64,000 nucleotides of DNA from Porticoccaceae bacterium. GTDB taxonomy: Bacteria; Pseudomonadota; Gammaproteobacteria; Pseudomonadales; Porticoccaceae. The translations under genes and the position numbers were made by a program. Positions 1-45,611 of this stretch are shown piece after piece; the stretch's first letter is position 1, and every line of letters starts with the position of its first letter. The stretch covers positions 1-64,000 of the forward strand of contig JAQWYJ010000136.1 of NCBI GenBank assembly GCA_029254005.1, in the 5' to 3' direction. The notes below the pieces were generated by a model. The model saw only the letters and a list, made by a program, of their open reading frames with translations, was not told the origin of the DNA and searched no databases.

Positions 1-2
1 TA

Positions 3-1169: not shown

Positions 1170-1216
1170 AGTATTTTCTCAAACCTACATACAAACTAAC
1201 ATTTACAGGAGATTTT

Positions 1217-1888: not shown

Positions 1889-1904
1889 CACTTTAACAAC
1901 GCAA

Positions 1905-1929
1905 AAGAGCGCATTTTTACTGCGCTCTT
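1905..1929. terminator. Stem-loop downstream of nitroreductase
   Basis: AAGAGCGCA-ttttact-TGCGCTCTT, 9-bp perfect stem; no strong U tract. Confidence 0.45.
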
Positions 1930-2012
1930 AAATACTAGGTTATTTGACCGAACCACTGCTAATCTATAATCTCTTGAGTAATTACTTCCACTGATTAGCT
2001 ACAGGCTTCTGT

Positions 2013-2954: not shown

Positions 2955-2986
2955 ATACTTGAGCACAGATATGTTTAAAAGGTTAC

Positions 2987-3730: not shown

Positions 3731-3914
3731 AGGGGATAGTTTACCTTATGTTAAATACGGAGCAAGAGATGATCCTGTTACAACCAAACAATGAAAAAAT
3801 ATTTCAGTTTTCTATTGCTGGATATTTGATTATGATTTAGCTTACATACTAATACTGCTACAGATCTATGGATAGGCGATTAGCATAAAAAGGTCAGCAC
3901 CATAAAAATAACAA

Positions 3915-5291
3915 TTGGTTGGTCATCACATGGATATGATTAATGAAGCTGCGCGTGAAACGCCTATTATCCGTAAAACTGACATTTTAGTTGTTGGCAG
4001 TGGCCCGGGGGGACTTGCAGCAGCCATAGCTGCATCAAGAGCTGGAGCCGAAACAACACTACTGGAACGATACGGCTGCTTTGGTGGAAATTTAACGCAA
4101 GTCGGCGTTGAAGGTTTTGCATGGTATCGCCATGATCAAACCGTAGATAGCCAGGGCATAGGTATAGAATTTGAAGAACGTGCTAAGTCTATGGGGGCCG
4201 CCAATCCTGAACCACAATCAAATAGTCATGCCATCGATGGCGAAGCCTTTAAATATGTTGCTGATGTACTAGTCGAAGAAGCCAATATTATCCCTATGCT
4301 ACATCGTACGATGGTGGAGCCAATCATGGACAAAGGCGTGATTAAAGGCGTTATCGTAGAGAGTAAAGCTGGGCGTGAGGCGATTCTAGCTAAACGAATA
4401 ATTGACGCAACTGGTGATGCAGATATTGCTTATCGTGCAGGTGCAGTAGTACATAAAACCCCTGTAGAAGATATGATGGCAGCCTCGGTTATGTTCTCAA
4501 TTAATGGCGTTGATAAAAAGCGCTTCATTGACGATGTTAAGGCAAATCCCCACAGCTACAGCGACTGGTGTGGACCGGACTGGTCGATGGAAACCAGCGG
4601 TAAAGAGGATGCATTATTTTCACCCTACCTAAAAAAGCCCTTCGAAAAAGCCATTGAGTCCGGTTTGATTCCTAAAAATTTAAATACGATTACCGGTACT
4701 TGGGGCGCGATTAGTGAACAGGGTGATCTAAGTTATCTCAATTTAGTTCACCTAGCAGGGTTAGATGCTACCAATCCAGACCATCTAACAAGAGGCGAAA
4801 TAGAAGGCCGCCGTCAGGCGATGCTAGCTATTGAAGCGCTCAAGCAATTTACTGCAGGATGTGAAAATGCCAAACTTAGAAATTTTGGTATGACCCTAGG
4901 TGTTCGCGATACGCGCAAAATAGATGCTATTTACAACATGACAGCAGAAGACGTTCGCAATCAAGGTAAATTCGACGATAGCATCGGTATATTTCCCGAA
5001 TTTATTGACGGTTATGGCATCCTTATTTTGCCTACCACAGGTCGCTATTTTCAACTGCCCTACCGTGCAATGTTACCCAAGGGTGTGAAGAATCTACTAG
5101 TTACTGGTCGCAGTGTTGGTGGTGATCGTGACTCTCACGCGGCCGTGCGAAATATGATGTGTTGCGCCGTCAATGGCCAGGGTGCTGGTGTAGCTGCAGC
5201 TATTTCTATTCAAACCAATGTAGATTTAGCTGACGTTGATATTAAGAAAGTACAGCATACCCTGTTACGACAAGGTGCAAGATTAAGTTAG
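3915..5291 (+). CDS. FAD-dependent oxidoreductase (FAD_oxidored-like)
   Basis: Rossmann 'DILVVGSGPGGLAAAIAASRAGAETTLLERYGCFGGNLT', 'RIIDATGDADIAYRAGA'. An in-frame Met two residues into the ORF region may be the true start. Confidence 0.85.
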   Translation: MVGHHMDMINEAARETPIIRKTDILVVGSGPGGLAAAIAASRAGAETTLLERYGCFGGNLTQVGVEGFAWYRHDQTVDSQGIGIEFEERAKSMGAANPEPQSNSHAIDGEAFKYVADVLVEEANIIPMLHRTMVEPIMDKGVIKGVIVESKAGREAILAKRIIDATGDADIAYRAGAVVHKTPVEDMMAASVMFSINGVDKKRFIDDVKANPHSYSDWCGPDWSMETSGKEDALFSPYLKKPFEKAIESGLIPKNLNTITGTWGAISEQGDLSYLNLVHLAGLDATNPDHLTRGEIEGRRQAMLAIEALKQFTAGCENAKLRNFGMTLGVRDTRKIDAIYNMTAEDVRNQGKFDDSIGIFPEFIDGYGILILPTTGRYFQLPYRAMLPKGVKNLLVTGRSVGGDRDSHAAVRNMMCCAVNGQGAGVAAAISIQTNVDLADVDIKKVQHTLLRQGARLS

Positions 5292-5414
5292 TTAGTACCT
5301 ACTATTTTAGCAAATTATATAAAAAGTGGCATTTGGAGCTTTTTATCGAGCAGTCTATGAGTTACACGGGTTCTTCAATCGAGCCTAATAATTGTCTAAC
5401 AAAAGAGTCTTACC

Positions 5415-6323
5415 ATGCCTTTAAATATTTCTTCATCAGTTTTTATCACCTGTGCAATTACTGGCTCAGGCAATACACAGGAGCGCAGTAAAGAAGTACC
5501 TCGATCACCAAAGGAAATTGCTGAAAGTGCGATTTCAGCTGCTAAAGCGGGCGCTGCTATAGTTCACTGTCATGTGCGCGATCCGCAAACCGGGGTTGCT
5601 TCAAGAGATCCTAAACTTTATCGTGAACTCACCGATAGAATTCGCGAGTCAAATGTAGATGTCGTGTTAAATCTTACCGCTGGAATGGGCGGTGATATGG
5701 TGTTTGGTCCACCTTCCAAACCACTTCCATTGCACGGTAGCACCGACATGGCAAGCGCCGAGGATCGCATGGCACCAATTATAGAGTGTCGTCCAGAAAT
5801 CTGTACTCTTGACTGTGGCACGATGAATTTTGCCGAAGCTGACTATGTAATGACTAACACTCCCGGGATGCTCAGAGCAATGGGAGGGATGATGACAGAA
5901 TTAGGGGTGAAACCTGAAATCGAAGCCTTTGATACTGGTCATCTGTGGTTTGCTAAACAACTTGCCAAGGAATCGGTAATTGCAGATCCCGTTTTGGTGC
6001 AACTATGCATGGGTATACCTTGGGGTGCCCCCAATGATTTAAATACCTTTATGGCTATGGTCAACAATATTCCCAAGCACTGGAATTGGTCCTCTTTCTC
6101 TATTGGTCGCGATCAAATGCCTTATGTTGCGGCTTCAGTGCTGGCTGGAGGCAATGTCCGAGTCGGTCTAGAGGATAATCTGTGGTTACAGAAAGGTACC
6201 TTAGCAACCAATGTATCTCTAGTAGAGAAAGCTACTAGTATTATTCACGCTATGGGCTCAACACTAATGAATCCACAAGAAGTTAGAGAACAGTTGGGCC
6301 TTATTAAACGAGCGCCACAATGA
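5415..6323 (+). CDS. Beta-keto acid cleavage enzyme (BKACE/DUF849), probable 3-dehydrocarnitine cleavage
   Basis: 'VFITCAITGSGNT...IAESAISAAKAGAAIVHCHVRDPQTG' BKACE signature; overlaps a carnitine dehydrogenase gene by 4 bp. Confidence 0.9.
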   Translation: MPLNISSSVFITCAITGSGNTQERSKEVPRSPKEIAESAISAAKAGAAIVHCHVRDPQTGVASRDPKLYRELTDRIRESNVDVVLNLTAGMGGDMVFGPPSKPLPLHGSTDMASAEDRMAPIIECRPEICTLDCGTMNFAEADYVMTNTPGMLRAMGGMMTELGVKPEIEAFDTGHLWFAKQLAKESVIADPVLVQLCMGIPWGAPNDLNTFMAMVNNIPKHWNWSSFSIGRDQMPYVAASVLAGGNVRVGLEDNLWLQKGTLATNVSLVEKATSIIHAMGSTLMNPQEVREQLGLIKRAPQ

Positions 6324-7762
6324 CAACATCAAAAAGAACGATGGAATTTATCACTAACACAAATACACGCGTTGCTATGATTGGTGGAGGAGTGATAGGT
6401 GGTGGTTGGATCGCTCGGTTTCTACTAATGGGTTTTGATGTCACAATTTATGATCCTGACCCAGAGGCAAAGCGCAAAGTGGAGCAAGTACTAGCCAATG
6501 CTCGACGGTCAATGCCAGGGCTCTATGATTATCTGCTTCCAGAGGAAGGCAAAGCGTTATTTTGCAAAAGCATAAAGGATGCCGTAAGCAATGCAACCTG
6601 GATCGGAGAGTCTGTGCCGGAGAGGCTTAATCTCAAGCAATCTATCTTCAAAGAAATACAAACTCATTGCTCCAAAAACGCCATTATTGCTTCGTCAACC
6701 TCGGGCTTTAAACCTTCAGAGCTGCAACAAAAATCCATCAATCCACAACAAATTATTGTCGCTCACCCATTTAATCCCGTGTACCTAGTTCCCTTAGTTG
6801 AACTAGTTGGTGACAGCGAAACCACCGATAAAGCGGCGGATATTTTAACCAAACTTGGAATGCATCCACTGGTGCTGCGCAAAGAAATTGATGCTCATAT
6901 TGCTGACCGTCTTCTTGAAGCTGTTTGGCGAGAAGGTCTGTGGTTAATAAACGATGGTATTGCAACTACCACTGAAATTGACGATGCTATTCGCTATGGT
7001 TTTGGTCTGCGCTGGGCACAGATGGGCATGTTTGAGACCTATCGCATAGCGGGCGGTGAACAAGGTATGGCACATTTTATAGAGCAGTTTGGCCCGGCAC
7101 TCAAATGGCCTTGGACCAAACTAATGGAGGTTCCAGAATTATCTGATGAATTGATCAACAAAATTGCTGATCAGTCTAATCAACAATCAGGTGACTACTC
7201 AATTAACCAATTGGAGCATATTCGGGATGATAATTTAGTTTCCATAATGCGTTCACTCAAACTAAAGGATTGGGGAGCAGGGAATTTACTGAACAGTTTA
7301 GATCTTGAACTAGCGCGCAATCAGGTTAATCCAACGGAGCCACTCTCACAGGCAACGGGTGTGCTGACCATCAACCGCGTAATTCCTAGCAGCTGGTTAG
7401 ATTACAACGGACATATGAATGATAGTCACTATGCAGAAGTATTTTCTAAAGCCAGCGACATTATTCTAAGACGCCTAGGGGCAGATCCCGACTATATAGC
7501 GCGCGGCTACAGCTACTTTACGGTGGACATGAAGATCGATTACTTAAATGAATGTCACGCAGGTGAAAAGATATCTGTACACACTAGTATAAGAATCGCC
7601 GATGGCAAAAAGCTTGATCTCCACCATGAAATGAAAACTGCCACAGGTACCCTAAGTGCAAAGTGCTCGCAATTTTTACTTCACGTAGATCTTAACTCAC
7701 GAAAATCTTGCTTACCCATGGAACCTCTAGCCAGTGCACTGCGCAAAGTAGTGTCATCGTAA
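6320..7762 (+). CDS. L-carnitine dehydrogenase fused to a hotdog thioesterase domain
   Basis: N-terminal 3-hydroxyacyl-CoA dehydrogenase-like 'VAMIGGGVIGGGWIARFLLMGFDVTIYDPDPEA'; C-terminal 'VIPSSWLDYNGHMNDSHYAEVFSKA' thioesterase. Confidence 0.9.
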   Translation: MTTSKRTMEFITNTNTRVAMIGGGVIGGGWIARFLLMGFDVTIYDPDPEAKRKVEQVLANARRSMPGLYDYLLPEEGKALFCKSIKDAVSNATWIGESVPERLNLKQSIFKEIQTHCSKNAIIASSTSGFKPSELQQKSINPQQIIVAHPFNPVYLVPLVELVGDSETTDKAADILTKLGMHPLVLRKEIDAHIADRLLEAVWREGLWLINDGIATTTEIDDAIRYGFGLRWAQMGMFETYRIAGGEQGMAHFIEQFGPALKWPWTKLMEVPELSDELINKIADQSNQQSGDYSINQLEHIRDDNLVSIMRSLKLKDWGAGNLLNSLDLELARNQVNPTEPLSQATGVLTINRVIPSSWLDYNGHMNDSHYAEVFSKASDIILRRLGADPDYIARGYSYFTVDMKIDYLNECHAGEKISVHTSIRIADGKKLDLHHEMKTATGTLSAKCSQFLLHVDLNSRKSCLPMEPLASALRKVVSS

Positions 7763-7779
7763 ATAACTAAAGAGGAGTA

Positions 7780-8967
7780 ATGAAGATGATCCTATCTAAT
7801 ACCATTCCAACACCAGATAATTTTTACTGGCCGCCTAGTAAATCCATTCTCTCCGCAGAGCTGGTCGGCAAGGCTGTCTTAGTAACATGGACAGATAACA
7901 AGCAATCAAAGCTCCACCCGCTTTGGCTGCGCGACAACTGCTGTTGCAAAGAATGTTTAAACCAGGTGACTCGTGAGCATCTATTTGATCTGCGAGATAT
8001 TAGGTTGGACTTAGTGCCTCTATCTGTGGAAATAGATTCTCAAGGAGGTCTCTCTGTCACTTGGCCTGATAATCACACCAGTCGCTTCAACCCCGCATGG
8101 CTTTATGCACAGACAACCAAACAGCTCTCTCCCAGAGATGATAGATTAACGCTATGGAGTTCGGCAGATCTCTCTGAGCCACCGAGTTTCGATATCTCTA
8201 ACGGTAACATTAGTGACGAGTTACTGTACCACGTGCTATTAACTATTCTGCGCCACGGCATGGTGCGACTTCATGGGTTACCTACTGATGAGGCCCAAGT
8301 AGAAGAGCTAGCGGCCCGTATAGGCCCGATAAGAGAAACGCATTTTGATCGAATTTTTGATGTTATATCCAAAGCTGATAGCGATACTCTGGCTAATACT
8401 AGTCATTATTTACCTGCTCATACGGATATACCCACAAGAGAGTCGCCTCCGGGCATTCAGCTTCTGCACTGTCGCGTGGCCGACGCCAAGGGCGGTCACA
8501 GTACCATGACCGATGGCTTTAGAGTAGCCAAAGACATCGCACAACAACATCCTGAACACTATAAAACACTCACCACCAAAAAATGGTGCTATGCCAACCG
8601 AGCAGGCCCAACGGACTATCGCTGGGAGGCACCTATTATCCGACTTGATGATAGTGGGCAGCCCCTCGAAGTACGCTTGTTACCTTTTTCAAGAGCTCCT
8701 TTGCAAGCCAAATATGAAGAAATAGATTCCATCTATGCTGCACTTTTATGCTTTATGGATAAGGCTAATTCAGCTGATTATCAAATCAGCTTTCCCTTTA
8801 GCGCAGGTGATCTTGTTATATTTGATAATCGTCGTATTTTGCACGGACGGGAAGAGTTCTATCCTAAAACGGGTGATCGAGCACTTCGCGGCACCTATGT
8901 TGAACGCGATGATATCCTGTCAAAAGTTCGCGAATTTGAACAGCGCTGTCAGCAACAATCTGAATAG
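7780..8967 (+). CDS. Gamma-butyrobetaine hydroxylase-like TauD/TfdA dioxygenase with N-terminal DUF971-type domain
   Basis: 'LHPLWLRDNCCCKECLNQVTREHLFDL' zinc-like N-domain; 'HTDIPTRESPPGIQLLHC' and 'FDNRRILHGREEF' Fe/2OG ligands. Confidence 0.9.
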   Translation: MKMILSNTIPTPDNFYWPPSKSILSAELVGKAVLVTWTDNKQSKLHPLWLRDNCCCKECLNQVTREHLFDLRDIRLDLVPLSVEIDSQGGLSVTWPDNHTSRFNPAWLYAQTTKQLSPRDDRLTLWSSADLSEPPSFDISNGNISDELLYHVLLTILRHGMVRLHGLPTDEAQVEELAARIGPIRETHFDRIFDVISKADSDTLANTSHYLPAHTDIPTRESPPGIQLLHCRVADAKGGHSTMTDGFRVAKDIAQQHPEHYKTLTTKKWCYANRAGPTDYRWEAPIIRLDDSGQPLEVRLLPFSRAPLQAKYEEIDSIYAALLCFMDKANSADYQISFPFSAGDLVIFDNRRILHGREEFYPKTGDRALRGTYVERDDILSKVREFEQRCQQQSE

Positions 8968-8974
8968 ATATAAC

Positions 8975-9013
8975 TACAGAAAATAGGGCGCCGAAGGCGC
9001 CCTATTTTCTGTA
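8975..9013. terminator. Bidirectional terminator between convergent genes
   Basis: TACAGAAAATAGGGCGCC-GAA-GGCGCCCTATTTTCTGTA: perfect 18-bp stem, 3-nt loop, A tract and T tract on the two arms. Confidence 0.93.
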
Positions 9014-9019
9014 CAGCCA

Positions 9020-11506
9020 CTAGAACTTGAGGCTCATACTAACTCCAAGTGTACGCGGACGGTTAGTCATAATACGATCATCCCAATTTACTGCATTACG
9101 GAATACTTCACCGCGCTCATCGGTCAAGTTACGAACGTACATCTCAGCACGCCAGGTGTCCAAGTCCATTCCCACAGCAACATTTAATATCTGATAATCT
9201 TTTTGCTTATAACGCTTGGTTGGAATAGTGCCCCCATCATAAAGATTATTATACGAGGAGCCAGTAAAGATATAACTAGCCTGAACAAACCAATTAGACT
9301 CTAACTCATAGCGAGTCGACAAATTCCACTTTGTTTTTGGTACTCTAGGCAATGTTGTACCTGAAGACGCGGTAGGCGCATCCTGACCATCGCTCTGATA
9401 ATAGTCTTGGCTGAGTTCTGCCTCAATATAAGAGAAAGCACCCGACAAACTCCAGTTTTCGGCAATCATCGCTGTGAAATCGGCCTCAACACCATCACTT
9501 TTGGCCTGACCAATGTTATAGGTCAACGTCACTGGTGAGATTGATGTATCCAAACGAGAGAACTGGAAATCATCCCAATCTTGCATAAAGGCCGCTGCAT
9601 TTAAAATCATGCGTCCGTCCATCAAAGTAGTCTTAACACCAACTTCAAAAGAGGTTAAGAAGTCAGGGACAAAATCACACTGAGCTCCAGTAGCATCATC
9701 TCGACCTTGGCCACCATAATCTGCTTCGTTACCCACGGAACAGAATCGATTCAAGCCTCCAGGACGGTAACCTTCACCCCATGCAGAATAAACCATTAAA
9801 TCATCGCTTAGAGACCATTCGGCAGTCAAACGATAAACTTCATCTTTCGAGGCGGTAATACGATTGGCATCAGCACAGTCCGCACCGTAATTATTAGTCG
9901 GTCTGTATTCGCCAGATGCTTCTTGAGCTGCTGCACTTGGACCACCCCCACAAGGCCAAAACACAGTTCCAGAGAATCCATCAAGATAACTTTCAGCATC
10001 AAACTGTCGAGCACTAAGGGCCAACGTCAAATTATCGGTGAAGTCATAAGCTACCTCTCCAAAAAACGCCTCTTCCTCATAGCTTCGTTTGAAATCAGTA
10101 GTCCAATAAATATCTGGAGCATCAATGGCGGTGACCATACCAAGGTCGGCTAAACCCAATACATGCCATTCGGCGTCGTCGCGATTTTTTACGTCAACAG
10201 AGTAGTATCCAGCTTGCCAGCGCAATGGCTTTGATGGATCTGATGCATAGCGCAACTCAATTGTCTCACGCTTGTAATTCGCATGATCTTCCAACAGCGT
10301 ACGCGGATCAGAGCAACCATAATAAGCGGCGTAACAAGAGTAATAAGGCTGAACATAACCACCAGAGACATAGTAGTCACTGTAAAGAGAATAATCGGCA
10401 TCAAGTTCGTAATCACGATCAAGATCACCATAATTAAATGTTAGGGTACCACCGGCCACGTCACCTTCGACGTTGAGGGAGTATTGTGTCCACTCATCAT
10501 CTAAACTATCTGGTAGTAACCGAAATACTTGCAGATCGCCCACGGTTGGATCATGATCCCACACGCCATCTGACTCGAGATCTTGATGCATAACAGTCGC
10601 TGTTGCTGTCCAACTGTCATTCAAATCTACTGTTAGTGCCGCACGAAAACCGGTCGTTTGCGCCTCATTGAAGTTCTCTCCTGCAACATCACCAATATCA
10701 CCTGACGTATAATTATTATAAGTAAAGTCCGGAGCCATCGCTAATGCTTCAGCTTCAGTGGCGCCAGCAGCCACTAGCCCATTGCGGATAAAGCCATGTT
10801 TGAAAGTATACTCACCTTCAACATTGTCAATAAAGCCCCCTTCTCTCTTGGAATAACCTACCAGTCTAATCGCAGCAGTTTCTGACAGTGGGATATTGAT
10901 AAAACCTTCTATAGTTTCACCCACATCACCACTTTTAGGAACACTAACATCAAGGTCAATACCTGCTGAAAAGGCGGTTGGATCAGGTTTATTAGTAATG
11001 ATCCGCATAGCACCAGACTGCGCATTAGCACCAAATAAGGTTCCCTGCGGACCGGCCAGTACTTCAATTCGCGAGACATCATAAATATGTGGATTAAGGT
11101 AGGCGCCTGTCGCGGTTACCGGCTGGTCATCCAAATAGACTGCCACACTTGGATTCGCTCCTAATGAGCTTTCGCCACCAGACGAAATGCCCCGAATGTA
11201 TACATTGCCATTTCCAGGTCCCAACGTTATGTAGCTTACATTAGGTAGCATAGTTACATAATCTTCAAGGTCTGTAATATTCAAGTTGCCCAAGGTTTCT
11301 TGTCCTAAGACAGAGATTGCCATTGGAATATCTTGAACGCTCTCAGACCGCTTAGTCGCTGTCACGATGACCTCTTCAACCTGTTGAGCTATTGCAGAAG
11401 AGGTTACCCCCACCGATAGCGCAGTGATCATAACGGCGAGTGGTTTAAGCGCATGCCGTCTCTTGGACAAATTAGATAAAGTTGATGTTTCCCCTGTGTG
11501 GATCAT
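9020..11506 (-). CDS. TonB-dependent outer-membrane receptor
   Basis: 'VEEVIVTATKRSESVQDIPMAISVLG' TonB box/plug start, beta-barrel ending 'RPRTLGVSMSLKF'. Confidence 0.95.
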   Translation of the reverse strand: MIHTGETSTLSNLSKRRHALKPLAVMITALSVGVTSSAIAQQVEEVIVTATKRSESVQDIPMAISVLGQETLGNLNITDLEDYVTMLPNVSYITLGPGNGNVYIRGISSGGESSLGANPSVAVYLDDQPVTATGAYLNPHIYDVSRIEVLAGPQGTLFGANAQSGAMRIITNKPDPTAFSAGIDLDVSVPKSGDVGETIEGFINIPLSETAAIRLVGYSKREGGFIDNVEGEYTFKHGFIRNGLVAAGATEAEALAMAPDFTYNNYTSGDIGDVAGENFNEAQTTGFRAALTVDLNDSWTATATVMHQDLESDGVWDHDPTVGDLQVFRLLPDSLDDEWTQYSLNVEGDVAGGTLTFNYGDLDRDYELDADYSLYSDYYVSGGYVQPYYSCYAAYYGCSDPRTLLEDHANYKRETIELRYASDPSKPLRWQAGYYSVDVKNRDDAEWHVLGLADLGMVTAIDAPDIYWTTDFKRSYEEEAFFGEVAYDFTDNLTLALSARQFDAESYLDGFSGTVFWPCGGGPSAAAQEASGEYRPTNNYGADCADANRITASKDEVYRLTAEWSLSDDLMVYSAWGEGYRPGGLNRFCSVGNEADYGGQGRDDATGAQCDFVPDFLTSFEVGVKTTLMDGRMILNAAAFMQDWDDFQFSRLDTSISPVTLTYNIGQAKSDGVEADFTAMIAENWSLSGAFSYIEAELSQDYYQSDGQDAPTASSGTTLPRVPKTKWNLSTRYELESNWFVQASYIFTGSSYNNLYDGGTIPTKRYKQKDYQILNVAVGMDLDTWRAEMYVRNLTDERGEVFRNAVNWDDRIMTNRPRTLGVSMSLKF

Positions 11507-16837: not shown

Positions 16838-18295
16838 ATGATGAATACCCAACCAATAGCAAGTCACTTTATTAACGGCACCTACATCGAAGATACTCAA
16901 GGTCAACCTATTGATGTGATATATCCCGCCACCGGTGGCATTATTGCGCGTGTTTACTCAGCAACACCTGATATTATTCAGCGGGCTATTGAAAGCGCTA
17001 TTCAAGCACAAATCGCCTGGAGCAATATGTCAGGTGCGGAGCGTGGTCGAATTTTACTCCGAGCAGCAAGCATTATTCGGCAACGAAATCATGAACTCTC
17101 GGTATTAGAGACTTACGATACTGGTAAGCCATTGTCTGAGACTATCTATGCTGATGCTACCAGTGCTGCGGATTGTTTGGAGTACTTTGGTGGCTTAGCT
17201 GGCACAATTACCGGAGAGCACATCCCATTGGCCGATGGTAATTGGGCTTATACCCGCCGTGAACCTCTGGGGCTTTGTGTGGGCATTGGTGCATGGAATT
17301 ATCCGACTCAGATATCATGTTGGAAAGCTGCTCCAGCATTAGCCTGTGGCAATGCTATGATATTTAAACCATCAGAAACAACACCACTTTGCGCACTTAA
17401 AATTGCCGAAATTTTTATTGAAGCTGGTTTGCCCGCAGGTCTGTATAATGTCATCCAAGGTTTGGCGGATGTTGGCGCCGCACTTGTTAGCGACCCTCGC
17501 GTTGATAAGGTTTCTCTCACCGGATCAGTGCCCACCGGACGTAAAGTCTATGCCGCTGCCGCCTCACAGATGAAACAAGTAACAATGGAACTAGGAGGCA
17601 AATCACCCCTAGTCATTTTTGATGATGCTCATCTTGAAAATGCCGTTAGTGGTGCCATTTTGGCTAATTTTTACTCAACTGGGCAAATTTGCTCCAACGG
17701 TACCCGAGTATTTGTCCAAAAAGGGATCCTGAAGGAATTTTTAGCACGACTAGTGGAACGTCTAGACCAAGCCATAGTGGGGGATCCGCAAGATTTAAAA
17801 ACTACTTTTGGCCCAATGGTTAGTAAGCGCCAACTTGACATTGTGCTCGGTTATATTGAGAAGGGAAAGGCAGAAGGTGCGAGACTGGTAAGTGGAGGTA
17901 AAGCTATTTCTGGGCCAGGGTACTATCTGCAACCAACCATATTTTGTGATGTTACCGATGAGATGACTATTGCTAAAGAAGAAGTATTTGGCCCTCTTAT
18001 GTCCGTGCTTACGTTTGACGATGAAACTGAAGTTATTGCGCGGGCAAATGCGACGGAGTTTGGCTTAGCCGCTGGTGTATTTACAGCAGATATCAGCCGC
18101 GCTCACCGGATGGTCAACGCCATTAAAGCCGGGACATGTTTTATCAATTCTTACAATGACGCACCTGTAGAAGTCCCTTTTGGCGGCTTTAATATGTCTG
18201 GCGTTGGCCGCGAAAACTCAAAGGCCGCAGTGGCACACTATACGCAAATAAAGTCTGTATTTGTTCGTATGGGCAATGTGGAAGCGCCTTTTTAA
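16838..18295 (+). CDS. betB: Betaine-aldehyde dehydrogenase / aldehyde dehydrogenase
   Basis: '[17 protein letters not shown]', '[14 protein letters not shown]', '[16 protein letters not shown]'; start chosen at the MMNTQ Met after a 'tggaga' RBS. Confidence 0.88.
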
Positions 18296-33551: not shown

Positions 33552-34913
33552 TCACAGCGCTGCAAGTAACGTTAAACCGAGTGCAGCGATGAACGCCGCT
33601 ATTAGTGCATAAGGTATTTGTGTCAACGCATGATCCATAACATTACAGCCACAACCTTGCGCGGCAAGGACAGTAGAATCTGAGTAAAAACACGCATGAC
33701 TGCCAAACGCACTTGCAGAAACAATTGCGCCAATTGCCAGGGGTATGCTGACCCCAAGGCTTTCAGCCAAGGGCAAAATGACGGGAATAGCAATGGTAAA
33801 GACTCCCCAGCTGGATCCTGTTGCAAATGAAATAAATGACATCGTTACAAACACCATTAACGGCAGTAAAACAGGCGTCATAGAATCAGCGACATTATCA
33901 ATCACATAATTTGCAAGACCTAGTTGATCATTAACATCCTTAAACACAAAGGCAACGATAACAATAATCAACGCTGGTAACATGATCTTAACTCCGTCTA
34001 GCACGGCATCGAACATTTCAGTCCAAGAAAGCAGTTTTTGTGCGCCAAACAGCACCATGGTTAACGCGACGGCCGCAATCACACCAAGCTGCACATCTGG
34101 ATTCCAGGGGTTGCCCCAAAGACTAAAAATAAGCAGCGTGAGAATAGGCAGCACAAAATGGTACATCCTGACAGGATTTGCATTATCTTCAGCCGCATAA
34201 ACTTCAATGTCACTTGGCACTGCAGAGATAAGACCTGCCTCAGCTCGCTCCTGTGCCCGTTTCATTAAGCCCAACGCTGGTAAACGCCCAGTTGCTACAA
34301 GAGGGACCATTGCCACCGCCACCATAGGATAGAGCATGTAAGGAATAGCACTGATATATACAGCCATACCTTCACCAGATTCGGCAAACCCTATTTCAGT
34401 AAATAATCCCGCATAAAAAACTGCCCAAGTGGATAATGGTACCAATACACAGATTGGTGCTGCGGTAGAGTCCACAACATAGGAGAGCATTTCACGAGAC
34501 ACATTGAACTTATCAGTTACCTTTCTCATTGCTGAACCAACAGCTAAGGCATTGAGGTAGTCATCAACGAAGATAACCAAACCTAACAACCAAGTGTAAA
34601 TTAGAGCACTGCCTGAATTGCGCGCGCGCGCGGCAAGAACTTGACTAAATGCGTTGGACGCACCCACGCGCATTAATAACGCAATTAAACTACCCATCAA
34701 GCCGCAGACAATGATAATCCAAGCAATAGTCTCGTCCATCATGACAGCAAGTAGAATAGAAGAGAAATTTGTCAGTGCCGCTTTTGGATCAAGAAGTAAA
34801 AGACCCACGGCAACGCCGGATAGGAGGGACTCAATCGGACGTCGGCTTAAAATTGCAACAATAATGGTGACGGCCGCTGGAAGCAATACCAACCAAGATG
34901 GTTCAATTGCCAA
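33552..34913 (-). CDS. Na+/H+ antiporter NhaC family protein
   Basis: Multi-TM; 'VFVDDYLNALAVGSAMRKVTDKFNVSREMLSYVVDSTAAPICVLVPLSTWAVF', 'FATGSSWGVFTIAIPVILPLA'. Confidence 0.9.
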   Translation of the reverse strand: MAIEPSWLVLLPAAVTIIVAILSRRPIESLLSGVAVGLLLLDPKAALTNFSSILLAVMMDETIAWIIIVCGLMGSLIALLMRVGASNAFSQVLAARARNSGSALIYTWLLGLVIFVDDYLNALAVGSAMRKVTDKFNVSREMLSYVVDSTAAPICVLVPLSTWAVFYAGLFTEIGFAESGEGMAVYISAIPYMLYPMVAVAMVPLVATGRLPALGLMKRAQERAEAGLISAVPSDIEVYAAEDNANPVRMYHFVLPILTLLIFSLWGNPWNPDVQLGVIAAVALTMVLFGAQKLLSWTEMFDAVLDGVKIMLPALIIVIVAFVFKDVNDQLGLANYVIDNVADSMTPVLLPLMVFVTMSFISFATGSSWGVFTIAIPVILPLAESLGVSIPLAIGAIVSASAFGSHACFYSDSTVLAAQGCGCNVMDHALTQIPYALIAAFIAALGLTLLAAL

Positions 34914-38176: not shown

Positions 38177-39037
38177 TTATCGAGCGTTAATTAGCGTACC
38201 GTAATCTGCCTTACCCTTGGCAATATTTGTAAATGCTAGGGCATTACGCGTGTCAACAATAGCAATTGTATCAACGCCTGATTCTAACAATGATAGAGCC
38301 TCTTCTACTTTTGGGATCATACCCCCCACTATAACCCCCGACGTTATATATTGCCTTGCCGTAGTTGGATTTAAATGGGTAAAACGACTTGTGGAATCCT
38401 CTATATCACGGAAAATACCACCAATGCCGGTGACAAAAATAAGCAGTTCTGCTGCCATTTTTCGAGCAATCTGCACAGCGCTTGTGTCAGCATTAATATT
38501 AAACACATTACCCTTAGAATCAACTCCTAAAGATGCGATGATCGGCACAACATTAGCTGACAGTAACCCTAATAGTAATGTTCTATTTATGGAAGTGATA
38601 TCACCAACCTCACCAAAATCTATAGGTGTTGGACCACCACCAGAAACCAATATTGGTAGCCGTTTTTTAGCCTCAATAAGTCGTCCGGATGCACCGTGAC
38701 ATCCAAACCCATTAATTCCATGGGCTTGCATAAGTGCGACAAAATCGACATTTACTTGACCACAGAGCACCTGTTTTACAAAGACTAAATCTTCCTTACT
38801 GGTGATACGTCGCCCAGCGATTTTGCGCGGCGCAATGCCGTAGCGAGATTGCACGGCAGATACCTGAGGTCCGCCACCATGTATTACCACTACATGCCAC
38901 CCTTCATAGAGAAGGCCTAAAATATTCTTTGATAAACCAGTACGCTGTTCATTATCGAGTAATATATCCCCACCTACTTTAATCACCGCCAAAGGTCTGG
39001 TCTTAGTTTGTAGGTTTATCGAATCACTCATGGCCAC
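38177..39037 (-). CDS. argB: Acetylglutamate kinase-family protein
   Basis: 'AVIKVGGDILLD', 'VVVIHGGGPQVSAV', 'VSGGGPTPIDFGEVGDI', 'NINADTSAVQIARKMAAELLIFVTGIGGI', 'GGMIPKVEEALSLLESGV'. Confidence 0.9.
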   Translation of the reverse strand: MAMSDSINLQTKTRPLAVIKVGGDILLDNEQRTGLSKNILGLLYEGWHVVVIHGGGPQVSAVQSRYGIAPRKIAGRRITSKEDLVFVKQVLCGQVNVDFVALMQAHGINGFGCHGASGRLIEAKKRLPILVSGGGPTPIDFGEVGDITSINRTLLLGLLSANVVPIIASLGVDSKGNVFNINADTSAVQIARKMAAELLIFVTGIGGIFRDIEDSTSRFTHLNPTTARQYITSGVIVGGMIPKVEEALSLLESGVDTIAIVDTRNALAFTNIAKGKADYGTLINAR

Positions 39038-40086
39038 ATCCCTAAACTATCTAAAAGGTAGTTATTCTCATGACCAGTCATCAGATTAAAGTTCTGCATA
39101 GCTTGACCAGCGCCGCCTTTTATTAAATTGTCCAACACACTGGTCACGCATAAAGTTTTGGTGCCATTAGCATGTGCTTCGCTGACATCAATGCCTATTT
39201 CAATACGAGCAGAATTTTTAATAGCCGCAACCTCTGGTGCCATACCTTTGGGCAATATTGATATAAGCGGAAATTCTTTATAAAACGCATGATATATTTC
39301 CCGCAACTCGTGTTCCTCAAGTCCGTTGGGAACATCAAACTGCGCTATGGACATCATTCCCCGTGACAAAGGCGCCGATACCGGAACAAAATCAAATTGG
39401 ATGTCAGTAGCACCTGCGGCAGCTAAGGTTTGCAAAACTTCTGGCGTGTGTTGGTGATTAAATACTTTGTAGGCTTTTAAGTTATTAGTACGAACAGCAT
39501 GGTGATTACCCATCTGTGGATGGACCCCTGAACCACTGGAACCCGTTAATGCAACAACATTAATCGCCGTTTGGCGCAGGTGATTCGCACTGGCTAATGG
39601 CAATAAAGCGGTGGCAATACACGTTGCAAAACAACCCGGATTAGCCACATGCTTGGCGGTTTTAATTTGTTCTGCATATAACTCTGGCATGCCGTAAATA
39701 AAGGTACCTAGTCTTTCCGGACAAGGATGCTGATCTGCATAATAACGCGTATAGTCGCTAAGTTGATCTAGTCGGAAATCTCCAGATAAATCGATAATTC
39801 GCACATCCAAAGCAAACAATTCCATGGCAACGCGAGCTGTAATAACATGTGGCATGGCTAAAAATACTATGTCCGCTCCAGCAGCACATTCGGTGGGTGA
39901 GATGTCTTCAAGAACAATATCACTAAGTCCCCAAAAAGAGCGATTGACCTGGCCGATATTTTTACCAATGTGATCCTTACTAGAAACACGCAGTATGTCA
40001 ACATCTTCACGGCCTATTAGATTCCGCAGTAATTCAGCAGCAAGGTAGCCTGAGCCACCAATGATAGAGACTTTGGTTTTTTTCAT
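39028..40086 (-). CDS. argC: N-acyl-gamma-glutamyl-phosphate reductase
   Basis: 'KVSIIGGSGYLAAELLRNL', 'HVANPGCFATCIATALLPL' active-site Cys, 'GSSGSGVHPQMGNHH'. Confidence 0.93.
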   Translation of the reverse strand: MKKTKVSIIGGSGYLAAELLRNLIGREDVDILRVSSKDHIGKNIGQVNRSFWGLSDIVLEDISPTECAAGADIVFLAMPHVITARVAMELFALDVRIIDLSGDFRLDQLSDYTRYYADQHPCPERLGTFIYGMPELYAEQIKTAKHVANPGCFATCIATALLPLASANHLRQTAINVVALTGSSGSGVHPQMGNHHAVRTNNLKAYKVFNHQHTPEVLQTLAAAGATDIQFDFVPVSAPLSRGMMSIAQFDVPNGLEEHELREIYHAFYKEFPLISILPKGMAPEVAAIKNSARIEIGIDVSEAHANGTKTLCVTSVLDNLIKGGAGQAMQNFNLMTGHENNYLLDSLGMWP

Positions 40087-41141
40087 AGAATACTCGCTTT
40101 TATATTATCTTCAGACTGGACAATTACCAGTGCTCGCTGGCCAATAGCAACGTTTTCGTTTGGAAATAAAATGCGTTCGCCATTAGCTGAAACAACATAT
40201 TGATAATTGTGATCCGTTGCTAAAATATCGCCCTCTTGAAACTCAGTAAAATTAACAATGTCCTCAGAAAAGCACAGTCGAAAGGATTCTGTTTGCTTGG
40301 TCACCTCACCGACAACGCGAAACCGTTCTACTATCGAAGGCTGCATGATTAGACTTCTTGTGTCGCTGATTAATGCTTTCAACCCACTAATTATCGAGGC
40401 GAACTCATCTAAATCATTTTCGCCAAACGGCTTTACCTGACCGAGCTCTAAAGTAAAGCTGGTGGCACCGCAAACCTTAGCCGTGAACGCTGAATAAGTA
40501 GAACTTTTTTGTCGTGTACTCAATATAGCTTGAATACCCCATTGCCCCAATAATTCATATTGGTATTCTATGTCTGGCGAAGCGATACTATTTGGCGAGA
40601 TAGCAAACTGTTTGTAAAAAGATCCTCTGATAGCTGTGTGTAAGTCATAATGGATTTTGTCTGCTTTTGCTCTCTGGAAAAAAATCCGGCTATGGGTCAT
40701 TAGTCTGTGACACCTAAGACATTCATCACTTGAGTTACTGTTAGGCGTAGAGTCTTGACTGAAGAGGCGGTTCATATTTTCATCACATTGCCGACAGTTT
40801 TTAGTAATGGCCTTTGGATTGGCTATCACCACCAGTAAATTATGTTTCACTGGTATTTCCCCAGAAAAAATCTCTCGAACTAATTGATCAATAATCTCTA
40901 CGGGAGCCGTCTCATTACCATGCACTCCAACCGACAATAAAATGGAATTCAGCGTTAAATCATCCTGAGGATGGAAGTACAAAACACCATTGTCCCAGAG
41001 CTCTACTCGAACATTATTGTCAATAGTAACAGCAGGGCAACCTTCAACAGTATTACCCTGTAGGGTGAATTCTAAGAAGCTGTGGTCACCAAACAATGAT
41101 GATTTACAATCAGCCACTGCATCAGACCTTTTGGAACGCAT
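40083..41141 (-). CDS. astE: Succinylglutamate desuccinylase
   Basis: 'LLSVGVHGNETAPVEIIDQLVREIFSGEIPVKHNLLVVIANPKAI' zinc-carboxypeptidase-type AstE signature. Confidence 0.92.
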   Translation of the reverse strand: MRSKRSDAVADCKSSLFGDHSFLEFTLQGNTVEGCPAVTIDNNVRVELWDNGVLYFHPQDDLTLNSILLSVGVHGNETAPVEIIDQLVREIFSGEIPVKHNLLVVIANPKAITKNCRQCDENMNRLFSQDSTPNSNSSDECLRCHRLMTHSRIFFQRAKADKIHYDLHTAIRGSFYKQFAISPNSIASPDIEYQYELLGQWGIQAILSTRQKSSTYSAFTAKVCGATSFTLELGQVKPFGENDLDEFASIISGLKALISDTRSLIMQPSIVERFRVVGEVTKQTESFRLCFSEDIVNFTEFQEGDILATDHNYQYVVSANGERILFPNENVAIGQRALVIVQSEDNIKASIL

Positions 41142-42465
41142 AAAAACTACCCAACTGCATAATTTGTGTTAACTCATCCAGTGCAGCTCGACTTTCAACC
41201 AGTAATGCAGGATCAGCTAAATCGTTACTACAAAGTTCATCTCGATAATGTTTATCTACCCAACTATTTAAGGTTAAAAATAACCTATCGGTAAACAAAA
41301 ATGAGGGATTAACTGCAGCTAACTGCTGCTCATTCATGACCACTCTTAACCGCAAACACGCTGGACCGCCTCCATTACGCATGCTTTGTCGTACATCGAC
41401 AAATTCTAAATGTTTTATCGGTGTATCTTGCTCGATAAGATCAAGCAAATAGCTATGCACAGTCTTATTCTCCTGGCTTTCCATAGGTAATATCAGTGTC
41501 ATTTCTTCTTGACCAGGCAAATTTACTAATTGTGAATTGAACAAATATGATCTGATCGCATCGCTCAAAGACACACGATTCTCGGGCACCTCTATAAAAT
41601 GAAGAGCAGTGTCGCCACAGGCCTCGTTGAGTTTTGCAAACAAATTGGCTTTATCGGCAAATGCTCGCTCATGCATAAATAAAACATTTTTGTTAGTTAC
41701 ACTCACGACATCATTGTGGAATCCACCAGCATCTATTACCTCCAAACTTTGTAAGGCCATTACCGTTTTGCTCTCTGCTAAACCATGCTTACGGGCGATC
41801 GCCATAGACGCCTCTAAAGACTGTCGGGCCGGGTAGCGTTTAGTCATTGTAGAAGATCCAAAATCTTGTTTTCCATAAACAAATAGCTCTACCCCTTGCT
41901 CACCATAGGCATTGCATAGTCGATTATGGTTAGCTGCCCCTTCATCACCTAAATAGATACCTCCAGAAAGGGCATCATGATGATTGAAATACTTATCATT
42001 GTTGAAAATAGTCTTTAGGATGTCACCCGTCATATCTTGCTCGATGGATCGATGAAACATAGTTTTTAAGTTTGCTGGGGTAAAATGAACTCTCCCATCG
42101 GCAGTATCACTACTTGGGGATACTGTGGCTGCGTTGGCTGCCCACATAGAAGAGGCTGAGTAACATCTAGCTAATAAGTCAGGTGCAGATTTATGTACTT
42201 TTTCAACAATAGATTGGTCTGTACCGCTAAATCCCATTTTTCGTAGTGTTGGAATATGTGGTCGCTCATGAGGAATTAAAATGCCTTGTTGGAGTCCCAA
42301 TTGATGTAATCTTTGCATTTTCGCTAAGCCTTCTTTCGCCGCTTGACGCGGCTGCGATACATGCTCAGCATTATTTGTTGAGGCTAAATTTCCCTGTGAC
42401 AAACCCGCATAATTATGGGTGCTGCCAATCAAACCATCAAAGTTCATCTCCACGGTAGCTGACAC
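41122..42465 (-). CDS. astB: N-succinylarginine dihydrolase
   Basis: 'MNFDGLIGSTHNYAGLSQGNLAST', 'GGFHNDVVSVTN', 'VDVRQSMRNGGGPACLRLRVV'. Confidence 0.96.
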   Translation of the reverse strand: MSATVEMNFDGLIGSTHNYAGLSQGNLASTNNAEHVSQPRQAAKEGLAKMQRLHQLGLQQGILIPHERPHIPTLRKMGFSGTDQSIVEKVHKSAPDLLARCYSASSMWAANAATVSPSSDTADGRVHFTPANLKTMFHRSIEQDMTGDILKTIFNNDKYFNHHDALSGGIYLGDEGAANHNRLCNAYGEQGVELFVYGKQDFGSSTMTKRYPARQSLEASMAIARKHGLAESKTVMALQSLEVIDAGGFHNDVVSVTNKNVLFMHERAFADKANLFAKLNEACGDTALHFIEVPENRVSLSDAIRSYLFNSQLVNLPGQEEMTLILPMESQENKTVHSYLLDLIEQDTPIKHLEFVDVRQSMRNGGGPACLRLRVVMNEQQLAAVNPSFLFTDRLFLTLNSWVDKHYRDELCSNDLADPALLVESRAALDELTQIMQLGSFYAFQKV

Positions 42466-42531
42466 GTGTTGCCTCCTATCTTTAAGTAAATATAGTGATC
42501 AGGTAATTTATTTTGCCCAATGCCTTTTATC

Positions 42532-43548
42532 TTAGAGTGCTACGTACCTGACGCGCTCACCAACAGATAAACTCAATCCATCTAATGTCTGCGAAGGCAG
42601 TTTAATATTGCCCTCAGATGTTTCTTCAATAACTGAAATGCAGGCTTTGAATGATCTAATATCACCCCCACAAACCAAATATTCAGTACTGTCAGGCGCC
42701 TCTGCTTGCCCAATTATATTCGCCACAGCGCTGGATCTAATAGTGGCTATGTGATCTATAAACGTATCAACGCTTGGGGCACCATCAAAAATATCTATCT
42801 GGCCACGCCAAAGAAAGCCTTCCTTCTCCAGCATTGCCAAGGCAGCTCTACCCTGATCATTAGGACGACCTATAACCTCCCGTGCAGCTTTAGATAATAA
42901 ATTCACATAGATAGGCTGCTTGGGCATTAGATCAGCAATAAATTGGTTACCATTAACTGCACCAAACAGGTCAGCAGCAGCAAAATCCATATCAAAAAAA
43001 TGCTGCCCTATGGCATCCCAAAATGGTGAGCGTCCATTTTCGTCAAAATAGCCACGTAAATCTGCCATCACTTGTGAAGGAAACCGCTGCCTAAACTGAG
43101 CCATAAATAAGTAACGACTTCGAGCCAGTAATTTGCCGTTACCTTTTTGTCGATAAGCATCATCTAGAAAGAGTGTGGCAACCTCAGCGAAACCTTCGAA
43201 GTGGTTGGACAAATTAAGGGTTTCAACGCTAACTTTTTTACCTAGAACTTTACTACTATGGGTAACCTTGTTTAGCTTATAGGAATAAAATTGATCATCT
43301 TCGCCAAGCTGCGAAATAATGCCCGCAGTCCCTACCAATAGGCCGGTAACAGTATCTTCCATGACCAAAAGATAATTTTCACGTCCAGGCTCAACAACAT
43401 CCCTGTGGAGACTAGTAGTTGATTTTTCAATTTTTTTAATCAACGCGTCTCTATCTGGAGGTAAGGTTGTCATTCCAGGATAAGCGGCTTTAGCCAAGCG
43501 CAGCAGATTATCAAGGTCATGCTCTTTAATAGGTCTTACAATAATCAT
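42532..43548 (-). CDS. astA: Arginine N-succinyltransferase
   Basis: 'MIIVRPIKEHDLDNLLRLAKAAYPGMTTLPPDRDALIKKIEKS', 'MADLRGYFDENGRSPFWDAIGQHFFDMDF'. Confidence 0.95.
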   Translation of the reverse strand: MIIVRPIKEHDLDNLLRLAKAAYPGMTTLPPDRDALIKKIEKSTTSLHRDVVEPGRENYLLVMEDTVTGLLVGTAGIISQLGEDDQFYSYKLNKVTHSSKVLGKKVSVETLNLSNHFEGFAEVATLFLDDAYRQKGNGKLLARSRYLFMAQFRQRFPSQVMADLRGYFDENGRSPFWDAIGQHFFDMDFAAADLFGAVNGNQFIADLMPKQPIYVNLLSKAAREVIGRPNDQGRAALAMLEKEGFLWRGQIDIFDGAPSVDTFIDHIATIRSSAVANIIGQAEAPDSTEYLVCGGDIRSFKACISVIEETSEGNIKLPSQTLDGLSLSVGERVRYVAL

Positions 43549-43595
43549 AATGATTAACCTTCATGTAACATTTAATAGTTGTGCCCAATACAAAT

Positions 43596-44960
43596 TTACA
43601 GTACCTGGCTAATTACCGTGCGCACGGACGCCTCAAACCGATCAACAATGTTGTCAATATCATTGTTTGTACAGATTAGTGGTGGTGAGAACGCAATTGA
43701 GTCCAACGATGGCAACGGTCTTGCAATCAGACCATTTTCATAACACTGCTGAGCTACTTTGGCTGAAATTTTTGTCTCTTTCTCAAAAAAAGTTCTCTGA
43801 TTTTTGTCTTTGACCAGTTGTACCGCAGCAATCATACCTACCCCGCGCACCTCAGCGACAAAACTATCTTTAGAAAACCTTTGCTTGAGCTGCTGATGAA
43901 AGTAAGTACCAACTAATGCAGCGTTGTCTACCAAATTTTCGTTTTCAATAATATCTAAGTTAGCCATAGCAACGGCCGCCCCAATAGGATGCCCAGCATA
44001 GGTATAACCGTGCGCAAAATTACCGTATTTAGCCGAACCCTTTTTTAGAAGCTGCCATATTTCATCAGATACAAATGAGGCTGAAAATGGAAAGTAGCCA
44101 CTGGTTAAGGCTTTTGCAGTAGTCATCATATCCGGTTTCAGATCATAATACTGACTGCCAAACCAGGTACCCAAACGGCCATAACCACAAACAACCTCAT
44201 CGACAATAAATAAAATGTCATAGCGTTTTAGAACCTTTTGAATAGCATCAAAATAACCTTTTGGTGGTGGAACTACGCCGCCAGCGCCTAATACGGGTTC
44301 AGCAATAAATGCTGCAACAGTGTCTTTACCTTCTTGTAGGATCATATCCTCTAGCTGTTGGGCCCGTCGTAATGAAAATGCTTCTTCGGTTTCGCCCTCC
44401 AGTCCATGCCGAAAAAAGTCGGGTGACTCAGTATGCAAAATATTATTCACTGGCAGATCAAAATCCGTATGAAATGAGGGTAATCCGGTAAGGCTTGCAG
44501 TAGCCAACGACGTCCCATGATAAGCTTGCCATCGCGAAATAATTTTTTTCTTTTGCGGCTGGTTGCGAATGTTATTGATATACCAGATTATTTTTATCAG
44601 GCTATCGTTGCCATCAGAGCCACCGCTACCAAAAAATACTTTGGACAATCCCTGGGGAACTTTTTCTAATAACCGTTCGGCTAATTCTATTTGTGGTGTA
44701 TTAGACATGCCTGAAAACGTATGATAGTAACTTAATTGCAAAGCCGATTTATGCATCGCATCTGCTAGCTCTTCCCGTCCATAGCCCACATTGACACACC
44801 ATAGACCCGCTACAGCATCAATTAATTTTTTACCCGAATGGTCTTGTAAATAAATTCCCTTTCCGGATTCAATAATTTTAGGCCCCGTTCGGGCAAAATC
44901 ATCTGCATTGGTTGCTGGGTGAAGGATACTACTAGCGTCTATCGCAGGTAAATTTTTCAT
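43596..44960 (-). CDS. Class III (omega) aminotransferase, candidate AstC-step enzyme
   Basis: 'IDAVAGLWCVNVGYGREELADAM', 'ISRWQAYHGTSLATASLTGLP', 'FIVDEVVCGYGRLGTWFGSQYYDLKPDMMTTAKALTSGYFP' with PLP lysine. Confidence 0.92.
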   Translation of the reverse strand: MKNLPAIDASSILHPATNADDFARTGPKIIESGKGIYLQDHSGKKLIDAVAGLWCVNVGYGREELADAMHKSALQLSYYHTFSGMSNTPQIELAERLLEKVPQGLSKVFFGSGGSDGNDSLIKIIWYINNIRNQPQKKKIISRWQAYHGTSLATASLTGLPSFHTDFDLPVNNILHTESPDFFRHGLEGETEEAFSLRRAQQLEDMILQEGKDTVAAFIAEPVLGAGGVVPPPKGYFDAIQKVLKRYDILFIVDEVVCGYGRLGTWFGSQYYDLKPDMMTTAKALTSGYFPFSASFVSDEIWQLLKKGSAKYGNFAHGYTYAGHPIGAAVAMANLDIIENENLVDNAALVGTYFHQQLKQRFSKDSFVAEVRGVGMIAAVQLVKDKNQRTFFEKETKISAKVAQQCYENGLIARPLPSLDSIAFSPPLICTNNDIDNIVDRFEASVRTVISQVL

Positions 44961-45167: not shown

Positions 45168-45611
45168 ATGAAAAAACACAATCGAACAGTAAGTTATGAC
45201 TCTGTAGACCGTGAACTCATATCACTACTTAGAACTGATGCAAGAGCTTCTATTTCTAAATTAGCTCAAATCCTCAAAGTATCTAGAGGCACAGTACAGA
45301 ACCGCTTAGATAGATTAATAGCAACTGATGCCATCATTGGCTTTACCATACGTGCAAGCGCAAGTATTGATGACGGTGCTATTCGTGCTGTTATGTTGAT
45401 AGAAGTCACTGGCAAATCAACCTCTAAAATTATTACCAAGTTACGCGGATTACCTGAATTACAAAAGGTTCACACCACCAATGGTGCCTGGGATCTAGTT
45501 GCCGAAATTCAAGCATCTAGCTTAGCTGATTTTGACAATGTGCTACGAGAGGTGCGCTTGATTGATGGTATTGCCAATAGCGAAACCAGCATTTTGTTGA
45601 GCACAGTTTAA
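45168..45611 (+). CDS. Lrp/AsnC family transcriptional regulator
   Basis: 'DRELISLLRTDARASISKLAQILKVSRGTVQNRLDRLIATDAIIGFTI' HTH and RAM-like C-domain. Confidence 0.95.
   Translation: MKKHNRTVSYDSVDRELISLLRTDARASISKLAQILKVSRGTVQNRLDRLIATDAIIGFTIRASASIDDGAIRAVMLIEVTGKSTSKIITKLRGLPELQKVHTTNGAWDLVAEIQASSLADFDNVLREVRLIDGIANSETSILLSTV

Follow-up and report, generated by a model that had tools for sequence, protein, structure and literature searches.

The window, a 64,000-nucleotide stretch of contig JAQWYJ010000136.1 from a Porticoccaceae bacterium (assembly GCA_029254005.1), carries a predicted operon of the arginine succinyltransferase (AST) pathway that includes paralogues of argC and argB, here termed argC2 and argB2. 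We consider it quite likely that a dedicated ArgC2-ArgB2 pair takes the place of AstD in this pathway, working like GAPDH and phosphoglycerate kinase and recovering one ATP. The predicted replacement of AstD, already put forward in an earlier sequence-only reading of this DNA, is well supported by the absence of AstD, the presence of a second argCB, the conserved linkage, and the succinyl-type signatures described below; the reaction direction, the actual substrate, the cofactor, and the ATP yield are inferred. It is likely, too, that the system is a form of the AST pathway not described before, which conserves ATP through a succinyl-specific ArgC-ArgB pair running in reverse, and that the operon is common to two lineages of Gammaproteobacteria and to at least one actinobacterium. 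No earlier description of an ArgC-ArgB-for-AstD variant was found in the open-licence literature searched.

If this is true, enzymes that make arginine would have been recruited in marine bacteria for ATP formation during arginine breakdown, and an energy-wasting oxidation would have been turned into an energy-conserving step. Pathway prediction would change as well, as genomes with the variant would score as lacking AstD and would carry a spurious biosynthetic argCB annotation.

Operon layout and gene assignments

All six genes listed in the sequence-only reading were recovered as open reading frames on the minus strand, in the order aminotransferase-astA-astB-astE-argC-argB and with the same coordinates, and their families were assigned by profile scores (Table 1). 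There are tight gene overlaps within the operon, and an adjoining, divergently oriented Lrp/AsnC-type gene is likely to encode its local regulator. This gene is kept beside the aminotransferase in relatives (87-95% identity), and an AsnC-type gene adjoins the aminotransferase in one Arenicella locus, too. The previously noted overlaps of 20 bp (astB/astE) and 4 bp (astE/argC) stand, whereas the 10-bp overlap of argC and argB requires a GTG start at 39037; from the ATG at 39031, it is 4 bp (ATGA). The ATG is more likely to be the argB2 start, because its 4-bp ATGA overlap resembles the one between astE and argC, with the GTG as a possible alternative.

Table 1. Features of the window discussed in the text
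Feature	Coordinates	Strand	Profile evidence
Betaine-aldehyde dehydrogenase	16865-18220		735 bits (cut-off 593)
argB2, N-acylglutamate kinase paralogue	38177-39031	-	TIGR00761, 197 bits (cut-off 151)
argC2, N-acyl-gamma-glutamyl-phosphate reductase paralogue	39028-40086	-	TIGR01850, 324 bits (cut-off 234)
astE, succinylglutamate desuccinylase	40083-41141	-	TIGR03242, 321 bits (cut-off 306)
astB, N-succinylarginine dihydrolase	41122-42465	-	TIGR03241, 657 bits (cut-off 538)
astA, arginine (or arginine/ornithine) N-succinyltransferase	42532-43548	-	TIGR03243, 379 bits (cut-off 284)
Class III aminotransferase	43596-44960	-	PRK07482-like, 632 bits
Lrp/AsnC-type regulator, divergent from the operon	45168-45611	+	Pfam AsnC_trans_reg and HTH_AsnC

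The astA product scores above the cut-off of the AOST subfamily and below that of the AstA equivalog model (TIGR03244, 350 versus 391 bits). The aminotransferase encoded in the operon, the enzyme covered by this test, is a class III omega-type (PRK07482-like) protein and not an AstC orthologue, and it reaches 230 bits against the argD model (cut-off 410). Its relatives, approximately 50% identical, are found beside astA-astD-astB in several other genomes. We propose that it takes the role of AstC, the conversion of succinylornithine to succinylglutamate semialdehyde.

Canonical argC and argB genes are encoded elsewhere in the same genome, as found in a check of the housekeeping arginine pathway that covered ArgA-like, ArgB, and ArgC proteins. 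The argC-argB pair of the operon is therefore an extra one, and the notion that it is the sole biosynthetic copy can be rejected.

Absence of AstD and distribution of the variant

The observation that no astD lies in or beside the operon was borne out at the level of the whole assembly, a 94.5% complete draft, where the best match in a profile search reached 246 bits, below the cut-off of 579. AstD was likewise not found above the cut-off in any of 26 other variant-bearing genomes (0 of 27, including this one), as opposed to its presence in 121 of the 123 other AstB-positive genomes of the order-level sample. There are 8 longer aldehyde dehydrogenase matches in the genome; each of the 7 enzymes that were scanned best matches a family other than AstD, and the one in the window is a betaine-aldehyde dehydrogenase (Table 1). 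The null search of 27 genomes and the other-family scores of the scanned dehydrogenases speak against a functional AstD elsewhere. A GabD-like and other aldehyde dehydrogenases of this genome could be promiscuous.

The two genomes that have neither AstD nor the variant are weak counter-examples to this complementarity. In one of them (G325), astA and astB are paired next to a transglutaminase-like gene, and the stretch read there contains no match to astE, argC, or argB; the AstB match in the other (G329) is only a distant relative (26% identity). Since the variant AstB sequences form a single clade, the mutual exclusion of AstD and the variant counts as one evolutionary event.

The survey of gene adjacency and the trees suggested in the sequence-only reading yielded a conserved, monophyletic variant with argC-argB standing in for astD. 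The astE-argC2-argB2 order is kept in 21 of 21 loci that extend upstream of argC (23 loci were scanned) and is also found within the family and in three Arenicella-type genomes. Carriers of the variant belong to Porticoccaceae/Halieaceae and Arenicella, with one actinobacterial-looking contig in addition. In searches of 369 genomes sampled from the class and 398 from the phylum, ArgC2 scored 710-732 bits only in its own genome and in three genomes of a single genus, with all remaining matches at 270 bits or less; among plasmid records, neither ArgB2 nor ArgC2 had a match with at least 60% identity. Between the two main lineages, ArgC2 is the best-conserved protein of the operon (68-75% identity), matched by the aminotransferase (66-72% for most sequences) and followed by AstA and AstB (57-63%) and AstE (37-42%). 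The operon genes are under purifying selection (dN/dS of 0.04-0.28 where estimable), and this, together with the recurrence in related loci, indicates that the arrangement is not due to chance. An assembly artefact was likewise rejected, as the same order recurs in independent assemblies. An HQH-type ArgC of another genome (locus L120 of G491) was considered as a further variant and dismissed, because it sits in an arginine biosynthesis operon with a carbamoyltransferase.

Sequence signatures of ArgC2 and ArgB2

In all 16 aligned ArgC2 sequences, HQH replaces HRH and GSGV replaces GAGR, so that the canonical Arg after GAG is missing; the canonical ArgC sequences in the alignment carry HRH. ArgC2 forms one clade (support 100/100). 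The catalytic Cys is kept (NPGC or SPGC). In ArgB2, GRR takes the place of G-M/L-R and the substrate loop reads GRRIT; the kinase motifs of ArgB2 (the Lys of IKVGG, N[IT]NAD, and GM[ILV][PA]K) are intact in 18 of 18 sequences. Conservation of these motifs and purifying selection point to a working kinase, as predicted from sequence.

Bacteroidota build arginine via N-succinyl intermediates. The ArgB of Bacteroides fragilis is an N-succinylglutamate kinase (PMC7311316). The ArgC HQH and ArgB GRR signatures are common to the operon enzymes and the Bacteroidota enzymes and are absent from the canonical enzymes sampled, in a comparison that draws its link between signature and substrate from families of known pathway. 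They suggest a succinyl-type substrate site in ArgC2 and ArgB2, in line with the earlier view of both as candidate succinyl-substrate enzymes, and such short signatures may serve to distinguish the succinyl type of ArgB and ArgC from the acetyl type. In the arginine-inhibited hexameric NAGK, an N-terminal helix precedes the kinase core; approximately 16 residues lie before IKVGG in the ArgB2 of the window (from the ATG start) versus 38 in the housekeeping open reading frame, while the starts of the relatives are uncertain.

Proposed pathway and comparison with known systems

In the proposed pathway, AstA would succinylate arginine, AstB would then give N-succinylornithine, and the aminotransferase would convert this to N-succinylglutamate semialdehyde. 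ArgC2 would use NAD(P)+ and phosphate to turn the semialdehyde into N-succinylglutamyl phosphate, from which ArgB2 would transfer the phosphate to ADP, yielding ATP and N-succinylglutamate, to be split by AstE into glutamate and succinate. One ATP would be recovered per arginine, offsetting the succinyl-CoA used by AstA.

The same two enzymes could instead be biosynthetic, leading from N-succinylglutamate via the semialdehyde and an aminotransferase to N-succinylornithine in a Bacteroides-like succinyl route. ArgC and ArgB families are biosynthetic by default, and the succinyl-type motifs are common to biosynthetic enzymes of Bacteroidota and G491. However, genes for a succinylglutamate synthase, a succinylornithine carbamoyltransferase, and an M20-type deacylase of the Bacteroidota-operon kind are missing from the operon, which encodes the irreversible hydrolase AstB as well as AstE, an enzyme that breaks down succinylglutamate. 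With canonical argB and argC elsewhere in the genome and the AstD step left unfilled, we regard this route as very improbable.

Equally small is the chance that a general aldehyde dehydrogenase encoded elsewhere, e.g., a GabD-like one, carries out the AstD step, leaving ArgC2-ArgB2 another role. Semialdehyde dehydrogenases can be promiscuous and the genome has the 8 longer matches mentioned above, but those scanned belong with other families, ArgC2-ArgB2 stays linked to astE in two lineages and on the actinobacterial-looking contig, and genomes without the pair nearly always have AstD. It is marginally less probable still that ArgC2 oxidises the semialdehyde while the acyl phosphate or the enzyme thioester is lost to hydrolysis, in which case no ATP would be kept and ArgB2 would have a side role: acyl phosphates are readily hydrolysed and ArgC is a member of the semialdehyde dehydrogenase families, yet the preserved kinase motifs of ArgB2 and the selection acting on it argue against such a loss.

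The preferred reading, phosphorylating oxidation by ArgC2 followed by ATP formation by ArgB2, can be set beside several known systems. The canonical AST pathway (AstCADBE in E. coli, Aru in Pseudomonas) likewise relies on astA, astB, and astE, here in one predicted operon, and on an aminotransferase able to fill the AstC step; here, AstD is missing, argC2-argB2 is present instead, the aminotransferase is of another subfamily, and the oxidation would be coupled to phosphorylation and yield ATP. Bacteroidota succinyl-type arginine biosynthesis shares ArgC HQH, ArgB GRR, and presumably N-succinylated substrates, but its ArgB and ArgC are used for making arginine, in operons with a carbamoyltransferase, a GNAT enzyme, and argininosuccinate genes, and ArgC2 forms a clade separate from the Bacteroidota ArgC. 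The LysY/LysZ proteins of the LysW pathway are related to ArgC/ArgB and accept substrates with a large N-acyl group; LysY resembles ArgC2 at the HH..R and YK positions but keeps HRH, and ArgB2 scores only 110 bits with LysZ-type models versus 197 with ArgB. Carbamate kinase of the arginine deiminase pathway has the amino-acid-kinase fold and makes ATP during arginine breakdown, but its substrate and pathway are different, and ArgB2 scores as ArgB, with E values of approximately 1e-7 to 1e-10 for carbamate kinase models. GAPDH and phosphoglycerate kinase share the proposed logic, phosphorylating oxidation of an aldehyde and then phosphate transfer to ADP, although with an unrelated kinase family and another substrate, so that the likeness is an analogy of mechanism only.

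The operon and its genomic background

The gene families of the operon are already known, and it is the use of ArgC-ArgB in place of AstD that we call a new variant of the arginine succinyltransferase (AST) pathway, its direction, substrate, cofactor and ATP yield being inferred. The sequence-only reading knew of no description of this replacement, and none was found in the open-licence papers searched. Re-reading of the sequence confirmed the strand and order of the six open reading frames and the astB/astE and astE/argC overlaps, and family models back the gene names. The argC/argB genes also overlap, probably by a 4-bp ATGA (ATG at 39031) and not by the 10 bp first given, the same pattern as at the astE/argC junction. 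The same models place the aminotransferase among PRK07482-like class III enzymes; it is not an AstC orthologue. Selection on the operon is purifying wherever estimable, and the ArgB2 kinase motifs are intact in the alignment. The N terminus of the window ArgB2 is shorter than that of the housekeeping ArgB, which may reflect a loss of arginine feedback. The NhaC/ArcD-like antiporter, also found downstream in the closest relative (L029), is a possible arginine or ornithine transporter.

Coordinates of the operon, its neighbors and the loci compared
Feature	Location	Coordinates	Orientation
aminotransferase-astA-astB-astE-argC2-argB2	window	38177-44960	- strand
Lrp/AsnC regulator, counted as part of the unit	window	45168-45611	divergent from operon
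NhaC/ArcD-like antiporter, downstream of argB2 beyond two + strand genes	window	33552-34913	strand of argB2
astE-argC2-argB2 end of variant operon	L113, contig labelled Actinomycetes	1-2840	
LytTR-type histidine kinase and response regulator between AsnC-type regulator and astA	L147, Arenicella-type locus	2638-4822	
astA-astB pair, then transglutaminase-like gene	L073 (G325)	4576-7922	
AST genes in two adjacent clusters	L089 (G150)	1-9522	
Gammaproteobacterial arginine-biosynthesis operon	L159 (G491:C11)	2760-10740	

The absence of astD, noted at first for the operon and its surroundings, extends to the whole assembly (2.55 Mb, 147 contigs, 94.5% complete; the window is contig C114), where the top match, at 246 bits, falls below the cut-off of 579. 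All seven of the aldehyde dehydrogenases scanned are closest to families other than AstD; one of them is GabD-like, and another is the betaine-aldehyde dehydrogenase located in the window. A second argC (C147; 423 bits) and argB (C92; 253 bits), which the sequence-only reading had proposed to look for, are present, so the operon pair is additional. ArgC2 and the second ArgC share only 31% identity, and an ArgA-like gene lies elsewhere in the genome (L013).

Distribution of the variant and of AstD

AstB is found in 12 of 112 genomes of the family, and each of these whose contig extends far enough has the astE-argC-argB arrangement. With the ArgC2 alignment as query, a collection of 84,980 species genomes yielded 23 loci, from Porticoccaceae and HTCC2207-type bins, a Halieaceae bin, several Arenicella bins, other Gammaproteobacteria and one Actinomycetes-labelled contig. 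The astE-argC2-argB2 adjacency holds in 21/21 loci extending upstream of argC; the contigs of L094 and L105 start at argC. The adjacency is shared by three genomes, each 99% complete, from a single genus, which is taken to be Arenicella because one of them has a contig in common with an Arenicella record. In the class and phylum samples, ArgC2 scores 710 to 732 bits and everything else at most 270. The other genes of the Actinomycetes-labelled contig look actinobacterial in our reading, which suggests transfer of the operon between phyla, with contamination as the alternative.

AstD was over the cut-off in none of the 27 distinct variant genomes (12 of the family, including our own, plus 13 and 3, with G594, apparently the same genome as G445, counted once). 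In the order-level sample, 121 of 124 genomes with an AstB match have AstD, the exceptions being our genome, G325 and G329. The Fisher p of ~1e-27 overstates the evidence, since AstB of the variant forms a single clade (support, 99/95). The loss of AstD is thereby one replacement event, retained over long divergence. In G325, which lacks AstD over the cut-off, the astA-astB pair possibly represents a different use of AstA and AstB. G112, G157, G192 and G421 have AstD over or near the cut-off and no AstB match in the same sample. In G150, one cluster holds astE, an Lrp-type gene, an aminotransferase, astA and astD, and the other astB and a second astA.

Signatures of ArgC2 and ArgB2

In the ArgC tree that had been proposed, ArgC2 forms one clade (100/100), separate from canonical and Bacteroidota ArgC; its deeper placement is unsure because of long branches. 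Bacteroidota arginine-biosynthesis genes from a plasmid collection provided ArgC sequences for comparison. ArgC2 has in common with them HQH at the HRH position of canonical ArgC, a residue other than Arg behind the GAG/GSG motif, an HH or HF stretch with R and N residues further on, and YK; the canonical sequences aligned have HRH and nearly all of them SGAGR. In one characterised ArgC, HRH binds the substrate phosphate and carbonyl, the GAG region makes room for the side chain, and the Arg that follows GAG contacts the NADPH diphosphate (PMC10170137), so ArgC2, with another residue there, may use NAD+ or NADP+. Likewise, GRR[IV]T is found in 18/18 ArgB2 and 3/3 Bacteroidota ArgB, in contrast to G-M/L/I/E/F-RVT in canonical ArgB and GHRVT in Thermotoga maritima; the loop with the GRR position holds the equivalent of the substrate-binding Arg66 (PMC3236213). 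In Bacteroidota, genetics and biochemistry indicate succinylated arginine intermediates, and Bacteroides fragilis ArgB is reported to be an N-succinylglutamate kinase (PMC7311316).

G491 represents a third lineage, with HQH-type ArgC and GRR-type ArgB beside an N-acetyl/N-succinylornithine-type carbamoyltransferase in its operon. At the position of this carbamoyltransferase that is Glu in the Xanthomonas-type wild type of the PDB, G491 carries Pro. A change at the corresponding position is reported to switch between N-acetyl and N-succinyl preference (PMC7311316), and the Pro agrees with this, although the two Bacteroidota enzymes read have Gln. This operon suggests succinyl-type arginine biosynthesis outside Bacteroidota.

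Proposed reaction and its energetics

The operon encodes AstA, AstB, an aminotransferase and AstE and the genome has no AstD, which leaves a gap where N-succinylglutamate semialdehyde must be oxidised to N-succinylglutamate. Semialdehydes of this type and the matching acyl phosphates and acids are the compounds that ArgC and ArgB together interconvert; ArgC2 and ArgB2 would fill the AstD step, going from semialdehyde through acyl phosphate to acid with formation of ATP. The one ATP gained would offset the succinyl-CoA spent by AstA. By standard values, aldehyde oxidation by NAD+ releases ~40-50 kJ/mol and ATP formation needs ~31 kJ/mol, so the coupled reaction would be favourable, comparable to the coupling of aldehyde oxidation to ATP formation in glycolysis.
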